Below are positions 5,023-55,880 of a stretch of DNA of 64,000 bases, piece by piece. Made by a program: the position numbers and the translations under genes. Under the pieces are notes generated by a model that saw nothing but the letters and a program-made list of their open reading frames with translations, made no database searches and was not told where the DNA came from. Each line of letters opens with the position of its first letter. The first letter of the stretch is position 1. Where the stretch lies: the NCBI RefSeq assembly GCF_007827795.1, contig NZ_VITI01000016.1, forward strand, positions 1 through 64,000. The letters run 5' to 3'. Origin of the DNA: Azospirillum brasilense (GTDB lineage: Bacteria; Pseudomonadota; Alphaproteobacteria; Azospirillales; Azospirillaceae).

Positions 5023-7653
<2,631 letters not shown>

Positions 7654-48951: not shown

Positions 48952-48975
48952 GGCCGGCCAATGAGGAGTCCCGCC

Positions 48976-49407
48976 ATGCCCCGCCGCCTCGCCGCCGCGA
49001 CCGTCCTGCTTCTGCTGTCCGGCGCGCCCGCATCGGCCAACGAGTTCGAGCGAGTCCCGCCGGTGACCAACGACGCCACCCGCAAGGAATGCGGGGAATG
49101 CCATATGGCCTTCCAGCCCGGCCTGCTGCCGGCGGGAAGCTGGACCCGGATCATGGACGGGCTGGACGACCATTTCGGCGAGAAGGCCAGCCTGCCGCCC
49201 GGCCCGGCGGCGGAGATCCGCGCCTATCTGACCGGTAACGCCGCCGGGCGCGGCGACTCCGCGCTCCTGCGGATCACCGAACAGCGCTGGTGGCTGCGCG
49301 AGCACCGCTTCCGCCCGGAGGTCTGGCTGCGCAAGGAAGTGCTGTCCAAGGCCAATTGCGAGGCCTGCCACCGCGACGCATCCCGTGGCGTCTATGACGA
49401 GGACTGA
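48976..49407 (+). CDS. Diheme cytochrome c (DHC-like)
   Basis: Periplasmic di-haem cytochrome of 143 aa. Signal peptide MPRRLAAATVLLLLSGAPAS; haem motifs CGECH near the N terminus and CEACH near the C terminus. The 'WTRIMDGLDDHFGEKASL' and 'WWLREHRFRPEVWLRKEV' segments match the DHC family that donates electrons to SHP. ATG 48976 has GAGGAG 8 nt upstream and is preferred over ATG 48961. It lies 24 nt after the SHP gene and probably closes the cytochrome operon, though a DUF6494 gene follows closely. Confidence 0.92.
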   Translation: MPRRLAAATVLLLLSGAPASANEFERVPPVTNDATRKECGECHMAFQPGLLPAGSWTRIMDGLDDHFGEKASLPPGPAAEIRAYLTGNAAGRGDSALLRITEQRWWLREHRFRPEVWLRKEVLSKANCEACHRDASRGVYDED

Positions 49408-49471
49408 CGAGGCGGGACAAAGCGTTGCCACGACGGTTGTCTTCGGGAGCGATCAGAGAGGGAGGAGCATC

Positions 49472-49678
49472 ATGGACCACGACACCTTCAACATGGGCAT
49501 CCGGAAATACCTGAAGGTCGTCGGCGTCACCTCGCAGCGCGAGATCGAGCGCGCCGTGAGCGAAGCGATCGAGGCCGGCAAGCTGAAGGGCAACGAGACG
49601 CTCCAGGCCCGCGTCGCGCTGACCATTGAGGGCATCGGGCTGGAGCATGAGATCAAGGGGGAGATCGCGTTGGAGTAG
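49472..49678 (+). CDS. DUF6494-like small protein
   Basis: Protein of 68 aa beginning MDHDTFNMGIRKYLKVVG. A GGAGG ribosome site lies 4-8 nt before ATG 49472. The compact alpha/beta sequence with 'GVTSQREIERAVSEAIEAG' and 'LKGNETLQARVALTI' matches a small conserved family I recall as DUF6494, function unknown. It follows the diheme cytochrome by 64 nt on the same strand and precedes repeat copy C. The name rests on memory. Confidence 0.75.
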   Translation: MDHDTFNMGIRKYLKVVGVTSQREIERAVSEAIEAGKLKGNETLQARVALTIEGIGLEHEIKGEIALE

Positions 49679-49793: not shown

Positions 49794-50561
49794 TCACCCC
49801 ATCACCAACCCCCCATCCACATACAGCACCTGCCCCGTCATGAAACGGCTCCAGCCGGAGGCCAGGAACAGCACCGGGCCGGTCACGTCCTCCGGCGTGG
49901 CGATGCGGCGCAGCGGGGTCTGGGCGACGATGGCGTCCTTCACGTCCTCCTTCGTCGCCCGACTGGCGTCGGTGGGGTAGACCAGCCCCGGCGCCACGCA
50001 GTTGACGCGGATGCCCAGCGGCCCCAGCTCCGCCGCCAGATTGCGGCTGAAGCCGACCAGCGCCGCCTTGGCCGTCGTGTAGTCGTGATAGGGCACGGTG
50101 GGCCGGGCGACGAGATCGGTCGCCATGTTCACGATGCTGCCGCCGGGCCGCCGCCGCATCACCGGCAACACCGCCCGGCAGACGTTGTAGGTGCCGAGCA
50201 GCGCACCGTCCACCTGCCCCCGGTAGTCCGCCCACTCGGTGTCCCAGAACAGCTTGCGCTTCTCCGGGTCGAAGGCGTAGGGGCGGAAGGCGTTGTTCAC
50301 CACCACGTCGATCTTGCCGAACTCCTCCGCCGTGCGCTCCACCATGCGGTTCACCGCCTCGGCGTCGGTCACGTCGGCCTGCACCGCCCAGGCGTCGCCG
50401 CCGGCTTCCCGGCAGGCCGCCGCCACCGCCTCGGCAGCGTCCGCGTTGCTCAGGTAGTTGACGGCGACCGCCGCCCCCTCCGCCGCGAAGGCCTTGGCGA
50501 TGGCGGCGCCGATGCCGCGGCTGGCACCGGTGACGAGGACGGTCTTGTCGCGGAAATCCAT
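49794..50561 (-). CDS. SDR family oxidoreductase, last gene of TPP-riboswitch operon
   Basis: Classical short-chain dehydrogenase of 255 aa. The cofactor motif is 'VLVTGASRGIGAAIAKAF' and the catalytic pair is in 'HDYTTAKAALVGFSRN' (YxxxK). The usual catalytic Ser, 13 residues before the Tyr, is Thr here ('NMATDLVARP'), a conservative but noteworthy change. 'GQVLYVDGGLVMG' closes the fold. It would be annotated as a 3-oxoacyl-ACP reductase by default, but its place 17 nt after the ABC binding-protein gene suggests it reduces the aldehyde produced by the LuxC/LuxE-like pair, or otherwise acts on the imported compound. That is an inference. Confidence 0.9.
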   Translation of the reverse strand: MDFRDKTVLVTGASRGIGAAIAKAFAAEGAAVAVNYLSNADAAEAVAAACREAGGDAWAVQADVTDAEAVNRMVERTAEEFGKIDVVVNNAFRPYAFDPEKRKLFWDTEWADYRGQVDGALLGTYNVCRAVLPVMRRRPGGSIVNMATDLVARPTVPYHDYTTAKAALVGFSRNLAAELGPLGIRVNCVAPGLVYPTDASRATKEDVKDAIVAQTPLRRIATPEDVTGPVLFLASGWSRFMTGQVLYVDGGLVMG

Positions 50562-50578
50562 GGCCCGGCGCGCCTTCC

Positions 50579-51556
50579 TTATTCGGGGATCAGGTCGGAC
50601 CGGACCAGCTTGGACATGTCGAGGTCGGTCCCGATCAGGCCGAGCTGCTTGAAGGTGTCCGCACCCTTCTGCATCAGTTCCGGATCGAAATGGCCGAGGC
50701 CCTTCGCCCTGGTCGTCTCCGACACGCTGGAGGCGTTGCGCAGCTTGATGATGGCGAGGTTGGTGGCCTCGTCGCGGCCGTTGATGGCGCGGGTCACGGC
50801 GAGGCGGGCGGCCTCCTCCGGCTCGGCGATCATCCAGGCGGCGCTGTCGCGGTAGGCGGCGAGGAAACGCTTCAGAACGTCCTTCTTCGTGCGGTAGGTC
50901 TCCTCCGTCACCACGAAGATGTCGCTGGGCAGGTTCAGCGTGTCCTTGACCTCGATGACGTTGACGTCCTTCAGCCCCTTCTGCATGCCGACATGCAGGC
51001 CGGTGTCGGTCGCCGCGGTGGCGTCCACCTGCCCCTGGATCACGGGGGCGAAGTTCAGCAGGCCGGTCACCTCGATGGTCACGTCCTTCTCGCTCAGCCC
51101 CACCTGATGCAGCAGCACCTGGAGGTTCTGGCGGGTGCCGCTGGACAGGCTGTAGACGCCGATGCGCTTGCCCTTGAGGTCTTCCGGCTTGGTGATGTTG
51201 CGCTCCTTCGGCGACACCACGTTGAAGACGTTCTGCGGGTAGATGTTGTAGATGGCGATCAGCTTCTCGCCCTTGTCGAGCGCGAGGTAGAAGGAGGCCG
51301 GGTCGGTGAAGGCCACGTCGGCCTGCCCGGTCAGCATGTTCTGGATGGCCGAGCCGCCGCCGGTCCCCGGCACATAGCCGAGATCGATCCCCTTGGCCTT
51401 GAAGAAGCCCTTGTCCGGCTCGGCCAGCAGGTTGGTGATCTCGCTGATCGGCTGGCTCCAGCCCGCCACGGTCACCTTGTCGAGCGCCAGCGCGGGAGAA
51501 GACAGAAGCAGGGCGGAAACGGCGACGGCACCCAGGGTGCGCAGGAACCCGAACAT
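50579..51556 (-). CDS. ABC transporter substrate-binding protein (NMT1/THI5-like)
   Basis: Periplasmic binding protein of 325 aa. Signal peptide MFGFLRTLGAVAVSALLLSS..ALA, cleaved before LDKVTVAGW. The fold is that of the SsuA/TauA/ThiY group: 'EPDKGFFKAKGIDLGYVPG', 'GGGSAIQNMLTGQADVAF', 'LKGKRIGVYSLSSGTRQNLQ'. Such proteins bind sulfonates, taurine or thiamine pyrimidine precursors. The TPP riboswitch at the head of the operon favours a thiamine-related ligand. ATG 51556 is chosen for the signal peptide; the frame is open to 51601. Lies 7 nt after the permease stop. Confidence 0.92.
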   Translation of the reverse strand: MFGFLRTLGAVAVSALLLSSPALALDKVTVAGWSQPISEITNLLAEPDKGFFKAKGIDLGYVPGTGGGSAIQNMLTGQADVAFTDPASFYLALDKGEKLIAIYNIYPQNVFNVVSPKERNITKPEDLKGKRIGVYSLSSGTRQNLQVLLHQVGLSEKDVTIEVTGLLNFAPVIQGQVDATAATDTGLHVGMQKGLKDVNVIEVKDTLNLPSDIFVVTEETYRTKKDVLKRFLAAYRDSAAWMIAEPEEAARLAVTRAINGRDEATNLAIIKLRNASSVSETTRAKGLGHFDPELMQKGADTFKQLGLIGTDLDMSKLVRSDLIPE

Positions 51557-51563
51557 CGTGTGA

Positions 51564-52310
51564 TTATCCTTTCCACGGACGGCGCAGCAGCCACCGCTCA
51601 AGCCCGGCGGCGGCCTGATAAACGATCATGCCCAGCACCGTGATGACGATGAACAGGGCGAACATCATGGTCGAATCCATCATCCCCTGCGCCGCGATGA
51701 TCGAGGCGCCCAGCCCCTGCCGGCCTCCGATGAACTCGCCGACGACGGCGCCGACCAGCGCCAGCACGACGGCGACGCGCAGCCCCGCCAGGATCACCGG
51801 CAGGCCGGAGGGGATCTTCAGCCGCAGCAGGGTTTGCAGGCGCGTCGCCCGCAGCATCCGGAACAGCTCCCGCTTGTTGGGATCGACCTGCTGAAGGCCG
51901 GTCATGGTGTTTTCCAGCAGCGGGAAGAAGCAGATCAGCGCCGTGATGACGACGGTGGAGGTCATGCCGAAGCCGAACCAGACGATGAACAGCGGCCCCA
52001 GCGCCAGCTTCGGCACCACCTGGCTGGCGAGGATGTAGGGGTAGAACAGGCGGCGCAGCACCGGCACCTCGGCCAGCAGCACCCCGGCGAGGAAGCCGAT
52101 GGTGCAGCCGGCGGCGAGGCCCATCCCCATCTCCGCCGTGGTGACCCAGAGATGCGGCAGCAGGTATCCCCCCGCCAGCCCGTCCCACAGCGTGCGCAGC
52201 ACCGCCGAGGGCAGCGGCACGACCAGCGCGGACACCCCCGCCACCCGGCAATGGACCTCCCACCCCGCCAGCAGCAGGACGAGCAGCAGGGCCGAGGCGA
52301 GGCGGACCAT
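51564..52310 (-). CDS. ABC transporter permease (SsuC/ThiX-like)
   Basis: Inner-membrane permease of 248 aa with six hydrophobic segments. The BPD_transp_1 EAA loop is recognisable in 'LFRMLRATRLQTLLRLKIPSG' (split by residue groups), and 'LRVAVVLALVGAVVGEFIGG' is typical of the SsuC/TauC/ThiX family. ATG 52310 overlaps the ATPase stop as ATGA. With the binding protein and ATPase it makes a complete importer. Upstream codons to 52376 overlap the ATPase gene and are discarded. Confidence 0.93.
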   Translation of the reverse strand: MVRLASALLLVLLLAGWEVHCRVAGVSALVVPLPSAVLRTLWDGLAGGYLLPHLWVTTAEMGMGLAAGCTIGFLAGVLLAEVPVLRRLFYPYILASQVVPKLALGPLFIVWFGFGMTSTVVITALICFFPLLENTMTGLQQVDPNKRELFRMLRATRLQTLLRLKIPSGLPVILAGLRVAVVLALVGAVVGEFIGGRQGLGASIIAAQGMMDSTMMFALFIVITVLGMIVYQAAAGLERWLLRRPWKG

Positions 52311-53080
52311 CACGACGCGCGCTCCAGCGCCGGACGGTCGGGTTTGCCGTCCATGGCGTGGCGAAGCTCCAGGCACAGGGCGTTGAAGCGGGGGCTGTAG
52401 CGGACGTCGCGCCCGCGCGGGCGGGCCAGCGGCACCGGCAGGGCGTGGCGCAGGTGCCCGCCCTCCATCACCGCCACCCGGTCGGCCAGATAGACCGCCT
52501 CCGCGATGTCGTGGGTGACGAACAGCACGGTGGTGCGGTGCCGGGCGCAGAGCTTCAGCAGGTCGTCCTGCAACTCCTCCCGCGTGATGGCGTCGAGCGC
52601 GGCGAAGGGCTCGTCAAGCAGGAGCAGCGGCGGCTCGGTGACCAGCGCGCGGGCCAGCGCGACGCGGCTCTGCTGCCCGCCCGACAATTGGCTGGGGAAG
52701 CGCCCTTCGAGTCCGGTCAGGCCGACGAGGTCCAGCAGCTCCTCCGCCTTGCGGCGGTCCGCCGGCTGCGGACGGCGCGTCAGCGACACCGGAAGCAGCA
52801 GGTTGTCGAGCACCGTCCGCCAGTCCAGCAGCGTCGGCGCCTGGAAGACGAAGCCGACCTGGGCGCCCGGCCCCCGCACCGGCTCCCCCTGGATGCGGAC
52901 GGTTCCGGTCGAGGGGGCGAGCAGCCCGGCGACCAGCTTCAGCAGGGTCGTCTTGCCGCAACCGCTGCGCCCGACCAGCGCGTGGAACTCGCCCTCCCCG
53001 ATGGTCCAGTCGATGCGGTCCAGGATGGTGCCGCCGCTCGGGACGCCGTAGCCGGCCTGTTCGATGCTGACGAAGCTCAT
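52310..53080 (-). CDS. ABC transporter ATP-binding protein (SsuB/ThiZ-like)
   Basis: ATPase of 256 aa. Walker A 'LVGRSGCGKTTLLKLVAGL', Q-loop 'VGFVFQAPTLLDWRTVLDNL', signature 'PSQLSGGQQSRVALARAL' and Walker B 'LLLLDEPFAALDAITREEL' are intact, with 'FVTHDIAEAVYLADRV' as the H-loop. The sequence is that of the nitrate/sulfonate/taurine/thiamine-precursor importer ATPases. ATG 53080 has GAGG about 10 nt upstream; a TTG at 53095, overlapping the luxC-like stop, is the alternative. It is coupled to the permease gene. Confidence 0.94.
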   Translation of the reverse strand: MSFVSIEQAGYGVPSGGTILDRIDWTIGEGEFHALVGRSGCGKTTLLKLVAGLLAPSTGTVRIQGEPVRGPGAQVGFVFQAPTLLDWRTVLDNLLLPVSLTRRPQPADRRKAEELLDLVGLTGLEGRFPSQLSGGQQSRVALARALVTEPPLLLLDEPFAALDAITREELQDDLLKLCARHRTTVLFVTHDIAEAVYLADRVAVMEGGHLRHALPVPLARPRGRDVRYSPRFNALCLELRHAMDGKPDRPALERAS

Positions 53081-53091
53081 GGCCGGGCGCC

Positions 53092-54540
53092 TCAATCCGT
53101 GTAGGGGGCGAAGATGTCCGCCGCCCGTTCCGCCGAGCCTTCGATCTCGGTCATGGTGACGAGGTCCAGCAGGTTGAACCGCCCGTCATGATGCCAGCCC
53201 GCCTCCGGCGCGGTCATGCGCCCCAGCGCGCAGAGGCGCGTCACCCCGACCGCCCCCAGCGCCCCGGCCAGCGCGAACAGCTCCTCCGGCGGCGCGGCGA
53301 TGCCCACGGTCTGGAGGAAGGCGCGGTGGGGCGCCAGCCCCGGCACCGCCTCGGCCAGCCGGTCCACCGCCACCACCGTCACCGTGCGGTTCAGCCCGCA
53401 AGGGCTCAGGCCGTCCGCCGCGTCGGTGTAGGCGACCGCCCAGCTTCCCGCCGGATCGCCCAGCAGGGCGCGGGTCGGATCGGCAAAGCCCTTCGTCTCC
53501 TCCGCGTTGCGCCAGGACGCGACGCTGCCCGCCTCGCCCATCGACAGGGGGCGGCGCGGGAACTTGCTGCCGAGGGCGTCCAGTTCGTGCGCCAGATAGC
53601 CGGCGAACTCGCGCGGCGACACCCGCCCGCCGCGCTCCACGAACACGGTCTGCGGCGAGTAGCAGCCCTGCTGGTCGTAGCGCGCCACGTCGTAGGCCGC
53701 CTGCCGCGCCACCGCCCCCGCCTTCCCGGCGTCGAGCGCGGAGCGGGCGACCATGCCGAAACTGATCTTGTGCCCGTAGGGCAGGAAGCGCGTGGTGATC
53801 GGCACCCGCGCCCGGATGGCCTCCAGCGCGTCGTTGCCGCCATAGGCGACCACCGTGTCGGCGCGGGTCAGCCACGCCCGTTCCGCCGCCGCGTCGCCAC
53901 CCTTCCACCAGACGATGGCGATGCAGTCGGCCAGTTCCGGGTCGATCTCCGCCAGGATCTGGGCGAACCATCCGGCGAACAGCGGCTCGGCGCTCGGCAG
54001 CTTGCCGACCGTGCCGGCCTTCACCAGCAGGCCAGAGATCAGGCTCCACAACGGCAGGCCCGGCACGTTGCCCGCCCAGACATGCAGCAGAAGCTCCGGC
54101 CCGAAGGCGCGGGCGAAGCCGCCCTTGGGCATCGGCTGGAAATCGTCGAGCACCGCCGGGTTGGCGAAATCCTCCGCGACGAATTTCCGAAGCTCCGGCC
54201 CGCGGAAGGTCTTCAGATAGCCGGTCAGCCCCAGCCGGACCATCTCCGCGTCGTAGCCGGTGACCAGCGGCAGCAGCCGTTCCGCCTTCCGCCGCCACGG
54301 GTCGTCGCGGTCGAGCAGCCGGGCGACGGCGCGGTCGATGGTGGCGGCGATCTCCGCGACGGTGCGGCTTCTCAAGTAAGTCCGCGCGTTGGTCCGCACC
54401 CGCGTTGCCAATTCAGCGATCTGCGCCTCGCTCAGCACCGGCACCGCCACGTCGAGCGTCTCGGCGCCGCGCCGGAAGGTCAGCGTCCGCCAGTCCACCG
54501 CGTCGGCGGACAGCCCCGGCAGATGCCCGGCCCGCTCCAT
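53092..54540 (-). CDS. LuxC-like acyl-CoA reductase
   Basis: NADPH-dependent aldehyde dehydrogenase-type reductase of 482 aa. The acyl-Cys nucleophile is Cys293 in 'YDQQGCYSPQTVFVE', equivalent to LuxC Cys286. 'LLHVWAGNVPGLPLWSLISG' and 'VVAYGGNDALEAIR' are cofactor-domain landmarks of the LuxC family. In bioluminescence LuxC reduces a fatty acyl group handed over by LuxE to aldehyde; no luxAB genes are here. ATG 54540 overlaps the luxE-like stop as TGATG, so the pair is translationally coupled. Under a TPP riboswitch it may reduce a thiamine-related carboxylate, an inference. Confidence 0.92.
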   Translation of the reverse strand: MERAGHLPGLSADAVDWRTLTFRRGAETLDVAVPVLSEAQIAELATRVRTNARTYLRSRTVAEIAATIDRAVARLLDRDDPWRRKAERLLPLVTGYDAEMVRLGLTGYLKTFRGPELRKFVAEDFANPAVLDDFQPMPKGGFARAFGPELLLHVWAGNVPGLPLWSLISGLLVKAGTVGKLPSAEPLFAGWFAQILAEIDPELADCIAIVWWKGGDAAAERAWLTRADTVVAYGGNDALEAIRARVPITTRFLPYGHKISFGMVARSALDAGKAGAVARQAAYDVARYDQQGCYSPQTVFVERGGRVSPREFAGYLAHELDALGSKFPRRPLSMGEAGSVASWRNAEETKGFADPTRALLGDPAGSWAVAYTDAADGLSPCGLNRTVTVVAVDRLAEAVPGLAPHRAFLQTVGIAAPPEELFALAGALGAVGVTRLCALGRMTAPEAGWHHDGRFNLLDLVTMTEIEGSAERAADIFAPYTD

Positions 54541-55619
54541 CAAGTCGCCCGCGCCGCTTTGAGGAAGTCCTCGACCGCCATGGAGCAGCCCTTGGCATCC
54601 GCCCCGTCGGCCCGGCCGAGAAGCTGGAAGCCGCCGTCCACCTCAACCCCGGCGTCCTCGGTCAGGATGGCCGACGCGCAGTTGAAATGGGCCAGATCGT
54701 GATGGACCAGCACGCCGACGCTGCCGCGCGGCACCTCCTGCCCGGTCAGCGGGTTGATGACCCGGCTGCGTATCCAGTGCGGTCCGGACTTCACCGACGG
54801 GCACACCTCGTTGCCGTCGTCGTAGAACTGGGTGCTCAGCTCCGTCATGCCGTACATGTTGATGCACAGGCGGCGCGGCACGCCGAAGGTGGCGGACAGG
54901 CGGCCGTAGAACTCCTCCGCCGCCATCTCGCGCGACTGGCCCTTGAAGCCGCCGGTGTCGAGGATGCGGCTGCCCGCCGGCAGGGCGAAGCTCCGCCCCC
55001 GCTCGGCCAGCGCGTCCATCAGATGCACGACGCTGAAGCTCGCCCCCAGCAGGGCGTAGGGCTCGCCGGTCGCCTCCGCCCGCGACAGCGCCTCGATGGC
55101 CCCGTCCACGTCCAGCCCGGCGTCGGACACGAAGTAGCGGCTCTCCGCCGTCCCGAATTCGCTCTTGGCCAGCGCCAGATAATGGGCGAGCGAGGAGTTG
55201 GGCATTGCCTGCTCGGTCGGGAACAGGATGCCCATGCGCAGCCGGTCATAGCCCGCCATGAAACGGCGGCGGAAATTGACGGTCATGGAGCGGTCGTAGA
55301 CCGCCAGCGTCGGATGGTGGCTCTTGCCCCGCACGCCCTTGGTGGTGCCGCTGGTCATGAAGACGTGCGGGCATTCCTCCGGCGGCCGTCCGCTCAGCGT
55401 CAGGTCCTTGAAGGCGCTGATCGGCACGGCGGGCACGTCGCGCCAGCTCTTCACCGTGCGCAGGGTGCGCGCCCGCTGGGTGGCGAAGCGGCGGTAGGGG
55501 GCGTTGGTCTCGAACTGGTGGGCGAAGACGGCCAGCGCCATGCGGTTGAACGCCTCCTCGTCCGCCTCTCCGGCGGCGATGAAGGCCAGCAGCTCTTCGA
55601 CAAGTCGGGCTTCGGTCAC
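54540..55619 (-). CDS. LuxE-like acyl-protein synthetase
   Basis: ANL-type adenylating enzyme of 359 aa that activates a carboxylic acid with ATP and transfers it to LuxC. The phosphate loop is 'FMTSGTTKGVRGKSHHP', the adenylation motif is 'INMYGMTELSTQFYDDG', and the acyl-accepting Cys345 is in 'ADAKGCSMAVEDF', 14 residues from the C terminus, exactly as in Vibrio LuxE (Cys364 of 378). GTG 55619 starts the frame; an AAAGG lies about 11 nt upstream. It is the first gene of the operon, 92 nt after the TPP riboswitch. Its substrate is unlikely to be myristate for light, since luciferase genes are missing. Confidence 0.92.
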   Translation of the reverse strand: MTEARLVEELLAFIAAGEADEEAFNRMALAVFAHQFETNAPYRRFATQRARTLRTVKSWRDVPAVPISAFKDLTLSGRPPEECPHVFMTSGTTKGVRGKSHHPTLAVYDRSMTVNFRRRFMAGYDRLRMGILFPTEQAMPNSSLAHYLALAKSEFGTAESRYFVSDAGLDVDGAIEALSRAEATGEPYALLGASFSVVHLMDALAERGRSFALPAGSRILDTGGFKGQSREMAAEEFYGRLSATFGVPRRLCINMYGMTELSTQFYDDGNEVCPSVKSGPHWIRSRVINPLTGQEVPRGSVGVLVHHDLAHFNCASAILTEDAGVEVDGGFQLLGRADGADAKGCSMAVEDFLKAARAT

Positions 55620-55711
55620 GTCCGCACACCTTTTGCAACGCCAACAAACTGTTGCCGGAGCAAGCGGTGTCTGGATGGAATGGGGGTACGCCGTGCCGCC
55701 CTTCAGTCCCG

Positions 55712-55817
55712 TCCCTACGCCGGTATGACCCGGATCAGGTTCGATGGGTCACCGCGTTGTCCGGATGAAAGCGCCGGACCGGCGGAGTCTCAGCCTCCTA
55801 GCGAGGCCCCCCAGGGA
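55712..55817 (-). promoter_or_regulatory. TPP riboswitch (THI element)
   Basis: On the minus strand the P1 helix pairs TCCCT (55813-55817) with AGGGA (55712-55716). The invariant CTGAGA lies at 55788-55793, and the second conserved half reads ACCTGATCCGGGT followed by ATACCGGCGTAGGGA. An enlarged P3 arm (CCGGTCCGG.../...CCGGAC) is present. It leads the luxE-like gene with a 92-nt expression platform lacking a T-run terminator, so control may act on translation. High TPP should shut the operon off. Confidence 0.95.
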
Positions 55818-55880
55818 ACATTCGCAAGCTAAGGGACCGGCCCCCGCCCGTCAAGCCGGTCGGGTTCAAAGAGATCGGGT

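Follow-up and report, generated by a model that had tools for sequence, protein, structure and literature searches.

A TPP riboswitch-preceded operon with LuxE- and LuxC-like enzymes as a candidate route for the reductive salvage of a thiamine-related acid

What would relatives of the LuxE and LuxC proteins do behind a TPP riboswitch? The question was raised by a window of 64,000 nucleotides (the whole stretch of DNA analysed here), which corresponds to bases 1-64000 of contig 16 of a 6.24 Mb Azospirillum-type genome, and whose LuxE-like protein shows 97% identity to its nearest named relatives, from Azospirillum brasilense and others, among the matches listed. Thiamine and its fragments are exchanged among the microbes of soils, oceans and guts. 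To our knowledge, the known thiamine salvage routes start from alcohol- or amine-level precursors, and oxidised thiamine fragments are known catabolites for which no return route has been described. Judging from the sequence comparisons presented below, the operon very probably serves a TPP-linked reductive salvage of a thiamine-related acid, and we lean, if only slightly, towards the pyrimidine acid as the substrate of this pathway.

The operon lies on the minus strand, where six ORFs are found 3' of the riboswitch, neighbouring ones either overlapping or sitting 10-20 bases apart. The aptamer, a THI element with an extended P3 hairpin (55694..55823), is followed by the genes for a LuxE-like ATP-dependent acyl-protein ligase of 359 aa (54540..55619; PF04443, 73 bits, cut-off 24.9), with a GTG start and an AAAAGG stretch 5' of it; a LuxC-like acyl-thioester reductase of 483 aa (53092..54543; PF05893, 295.9 bits, cut-off 21); an ABC importer ATPase of the NrtD/SsuB/TauB type (52310..53077; PF00005, 123 bits), whose top NCBIfam matches, ntrCD and PRK11248, both remain below cut-off; a BPD permease of the SsuC/TauC type (51564..52376; PF00528, 99.8 bits); an NMT1/THI5-like periplasmic binding protein with a signal peptide (50579..51601, the true start being likely at 51556; PF09084, 163 bits); and an SDR oxidoreductase (49794..50561; PF13561, 219 bits). 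The RF00059 and Pfam matches, together with the ORF spacing, confirm the view of the initial annotation that a THI element and six same-strand genes form one operon. Its statement that luciferase genes are missing also holds for the operon, since the profile search assigned all six genes to other families and none to luciferase (luxA/luxB).

The RF00059 match (55823-55694, minus strand) covers all 105 model positions and, with 70.6 bits (E 7e-12), lies above the gathering score of 54.3. Orthologous leaders retain the P3 hairpin in many sequence versions, as expected for a working RNA, and folding of the leader RNA revealed no excess stability (z -0.56). A search for a T-run terminator found none in the stretch, which makes it more likely that the riboswitch acts on translation rather than on termination; control of the operon by TPP is presumed.

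In the LuxE-like ligase, the alignment shows the motifs TSGTT and YGMTE, typical of adenylate-forming enzymes, and a cysteine, Cys345, which lies in KGCS, 14 residues from the C-terminus, and is conserved in all 88 rows covering the position. The LuxC-like Cys294 (numbered from the TTG start) is part of the motif YDQQGCYS and does not vary in any of 89 rows. In alignments, both residues coincide with the cysteine motifs of LuxE and LuxC from Photobacterium (PDB 7xc6, in which LuxE is chain E). The two acyl-cysteines previously noted are indeed present, although the LuxC-like residue, given earlier as Cys293, has to be renumbered as Cys294. The AlphaFold model of the LuxE-like protein (pLDDT 89.9) has PaaK-type aryl-acid ligases as its top folds, a ranking that says nothing on substrate class as only 118 modelled residues of 7xc6 chain E are present in the fold library. 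As for the SDR, at least 97% of 86 rows keep Y161 and K165 of its YxxxK motif. Judging from their families, the three enzymes would convert an acid to an aldehyde and the aldehyde to an alcohol.

The association with the riboswitch is widespread. At least 80 loci were obtained from a species-level genome scan, to which others were added by tblastn of plasmids. Among the loci listed, orthologous LuxE-LuxC-SDR genes occur in Azospirillum, Bosea, marine alphaproteobacteria, Pantoea/Erwinia/Enterobacter, Polaromonas/Curvibacter, Pseudomonas, Bacillus-type species and Lactobacillus plasmids, the linkage being kept in Alpha-, Beta- and Gammaproteobacteria and in Bacilli. A TPP riboswitch was found directly upstream in 87 of the 88 loci listed, a set with some duplicates and with related species that are not independent, using a covariance model (R1) that has 8 base pairs only and is hence mostly a sequence model; L091 ends at a contig edge, and the sole exception is a metagenome-assembled (MAG) locus, L053, with no TPP riboswitch at this place. 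With the Rfam thresholds, the riboswitch was detected in 34 of 36 ortholog loci (7/8, 7/8, 16/16 and 4/4, with some duplicates). By contrast, none of 16 more distant Bacillota relatives of LuxE (E about 1e-84 to 1e-70) is preceded by a TPP riboswitch, while all of the orthologs checked for comparison are (4/4). Only four TPP riboswitches exist in the 6.24 Mb of the window's genome and the riboswitch-luxE link recurs in distant taxa, which argues against a chance arrangement; conservation of this link, whose absence had been named beforehand as a refuting outcome, is very strong. The operon is a patchy, mobile trait, present in 17 of 37 genomes of the genus and often carried on large replicons or plasmids.

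The transporter varies and the enzymes do not. All six genes are found in 63 of the 88 loci listed and the three enzymes without the ABC importer in 22, enterics and marine alphaproteobacteria having for the most part just these three; the remaining 3 loci miss some genes, at least partly through contig ends. In Lactobacillus plasmids, the TPP riboswitch is followed by an NCS2 permease, LuxE, LuxC and the SDR. In Niallia, two tandem TPP riboswitches precede ThiW, NCS2, LuxE, LuxC and the SDR; on the Niallia taxi megaplasmid pMEGANia, this tandem stands before ThiW at 6706-7002 of the locus (L107). NCS2 is a nucleobase permease family and ThiW a predicted thiazole transporter. That the enzymes stay linked while the transporter is swapped or dropped suggests that the three of them form one pathway. 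Clustering of gene neighbours across lineages revealed no common gene beyond the six, once shadow ORFs were discounted.

These observations fit the following model, in which the direction, the substrate and the order of the steps are those that we infer. When TPP is low, the riboswitch would permit expression of the TPP-repressed operon, and the ABC importer would bring in a heterocyclic carboxylic acid derived from thiamine, the most likely candidate being 4-amino-2-methylpyrimidine-5-carboxylate (oxidised HMP). The LuxE-like enzyme would activate the acid with ATP to an acyl-adenylate and transfer the acyl group onto its own Cys345, from which it would be handed to Cys294 of the LuxC-like protein, where NAD(P)H would serve to reduce it to the aldehyde. 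In a second reduction, the SDR would turn the aldehyde into the alcohol HMP, to be phosphorylated by ThiD for thiamine synthesis. The proposed substrate has been described as a metabolite of thiamine in urine (Neal and Pearson 1964, cited in PMC7780320). Import and two-step reduction of a thiamine-related carboxylate, as originally proposed, fit all the findings; the substrate, then left open among three, now points to the pyrimidine carboxylate on the grounds of kinase distribution, binding-protein fold and the NCS2 nucleobase family.

The same mechanism could act on other acids, and the enzymes that must follow it help to choose between them, as the alcohol products need different kinases: ThiD for HMP, ThiM for hydroxyethylthiazole (HET), and TPK or ThiK for thiamine. 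In a census of 50 carriers (one genome counted twice), ThiC and ThiD were found in all 50, with one ThiD split over two frames. If the acid were 4-methylthiazole-5-acetate, it would be reduced to HET, a reading in line with ThiW in the Niallia operon and with ThiM in enterics, Bacilli and Pseudochelatococcus (14/50 above cut-off) and, as split partial matches, in most Bosea (8/50). However, the other 28 carriers have no ThiM above noise, including every Azospirillum, Polaromonas and Curvibacter searched, and HET would there lead nowhere by known routes. If it were thiamine acetic acid, reduction would yield thiamine itself, but TPK was present in 2/50 carriers only and ThiK, among the 32 genomes tested, in enterics only, which leaves most carriers with no known route from thiamine to TPP. 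In Azospirillum, Polaromonas, Curvibacter, Azorhizobium and Methylobacterium, only HMP would thus have a known next step, an argument from the absence of known families, and these carriers may hold other, unrecognised thiazole or thiamine kinases. The model of the binding protein (pLDDT 94.5) bears on the same choice. Its nearest fold is ThiY (3ix1; Z 32.6, rmsd 2.7 over 293 residues, at 18% identity only), the formylaminopyrimidine binder, followed by the thiamin-bound Clostridioides difficile protein 4nmy (Z 31.3) and Thi5 (4esx, Z 28.5), with SsuA and TauA ranking below these three, all of which are proteins of thiamine or its pyrimidine half. The predicted fold thus speaks for a ligand that contains the pyrimidine more than for a bare thiazole, and fits the HMP acid and thiamine acetate alike; 4nmy being nearly as near as ThiY, an entire thiamine derivative might also be accepted by the protein. 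With pyrimidine or thiamin binders as the protein's closest folds, and NCS2 being a nucleobase family, we consider the thiazole acid unlikely; the thiamine acid appears slightly less probable still, given the distribution of TPK and ThiK. Thiazole-2-carboxylate (cHET) was also considered as the acid and rejected, since a reduced C2 carboxyl does not yield HET.

A further possibility is that fatty aldehydes or alcohols are the products of these enzymes, as they are of LuxCE, with the riboswitch link serving another need. Family membership with LuxE and LuxC speaks for it, as does the public annotation as 'long-chain fatty acid--CoA ligase'. Yet the LuxE-like protein scores 74.7 bits against the long-chain-fatty-acid equivalog NF052244 (cut-off 550) and the LuxC-like protein 80.7 bits against the long-chain-fatty-acyl equivalog NF052251 (cut-off 750), values so far under the cut-offs as to indicate broad-family members and not light-operon enzymes. 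The constant TPP riboswitch, the thiamine-type binding protein, NCS2 and the thiC and thiDME neighbours also argue against it, and from this context and these scores, activity on long-chain fatty acids alone appears unlikely, the reading as a whole being very improbable. As for the neighbours, the operon directly follows TPP-thiC in one locus (L083), and in a Bacillota genome (G217) that has neither thiC nor a true thiG, it stands divergently to TPP-thiD-thiM-thiE. Both being absent there, this gene content fits the pyrimidine and the thiazole acid equally; in the same genome, the HMP permease CytX also stands behind a TPP riboswitch. On balance, and by a small measure, we favour the view that horizontal transfer has spread through two or more phyla a TPP riboswitch-controlled pathway, undescribed as far as the open literature shows, in which HMP carboxylate would be converted to the aldehyde by LuxE/LuxC and to HMP by the SDR.

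What would carriers gain from HMP carboxylate salvage? In the window's genome, TPP riboswitches also precede thiC and thiO, so it probably makes both thiamine halves, and salvage would spare that cost; since carriers such as Azospirillum make HMP de novo, the benefit would be conditional.

The proposed route shares single features with several known systems. It has in common with the LuxC-LuxE fatty acid reductase (7xc6) the conserved motifs of the two cysteines between which the acyl group passes, one at the C-terminus of an acyl-AMP ligase and the other in the reductase; unlike it, the operon has neither luciferase nor LuxD, stands behind a TPP riboswitch and holds its own importer and an SDR. 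An NMT1-type binding protein, a TPP riboswitch and the (here proposed) supply of the thiamine pyrimidine are common to the ThiXYZ formylaminopyrimidine importer with TenA/YlmB, which works by hydrolysis and deformylation, whereas reduction of acid to alcohol is proposed for this operon, which lacks TenA and YlmB. In the CytX/ThiW/thiMDE salvage of HMP and HET, uptake is likewise TPP-controlled and the precursor alcohols are used by ThiD and ThiM, but the route proposed here would begin with an oxidised precursor unusable by kinases. Carboxylic acid reductases (CAR) also take acids to aldehydes with ATP and NAD(P)H, although on one polypeptide with a carrier domain instead of two separate Cys-acylated proteins. 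Our search of the open full-text literature retrieved no paper joining a TPP riboswitch with LuxE/LuxC-type genes, and these genes are not mentioned in the main text of a 2013 survey of TPP regulons (PMC3766115). If true, the proposal would provide a route by which a vitamin is repaired through reduction, a LuxE/LuxC pair acting on a small heterocyclic acid and a function for a family misannotated as 'long-chain fatty acid--CoA ligase' plus 'acyl-CoA reductase'; models of vitamin exchange would also gain a step if such a reductive route were common.

Some further observations were made around these loci. Downstream of the operon and convergent with it, the plus strand of the window (48961-49678) encodes a dihaem cytochrome c (PF09626) and a DUF6494 protein, neither of which was seen as an operon member in other lineages. 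Several LuxE homologues among the distant Bacillota relatives (L118-L133) lie inside long open frames (940-1060 codons) that may represent LuxE-LuxC fusions. In G217, a 517-aa ThiL/ThiN-like protein is encoded 3' of LuxE-LuxC-SDR (L136, 8826-10379), its N-terminal half being ThiL/HypE-like and its C-terminal half matching the last domain of an archaeal-type ThiD fusion (ThiN-like). Finally, another TPP riboswitch of the window's genome (L003 1501-2810, G000:C5:49278 on) precedes a Leu/Ile/Val-type periplasmic binding protein, and it is possible that this branched-chain-amino-acid-type protein belongs to an unrecognised importer of thiamine or a precursor.
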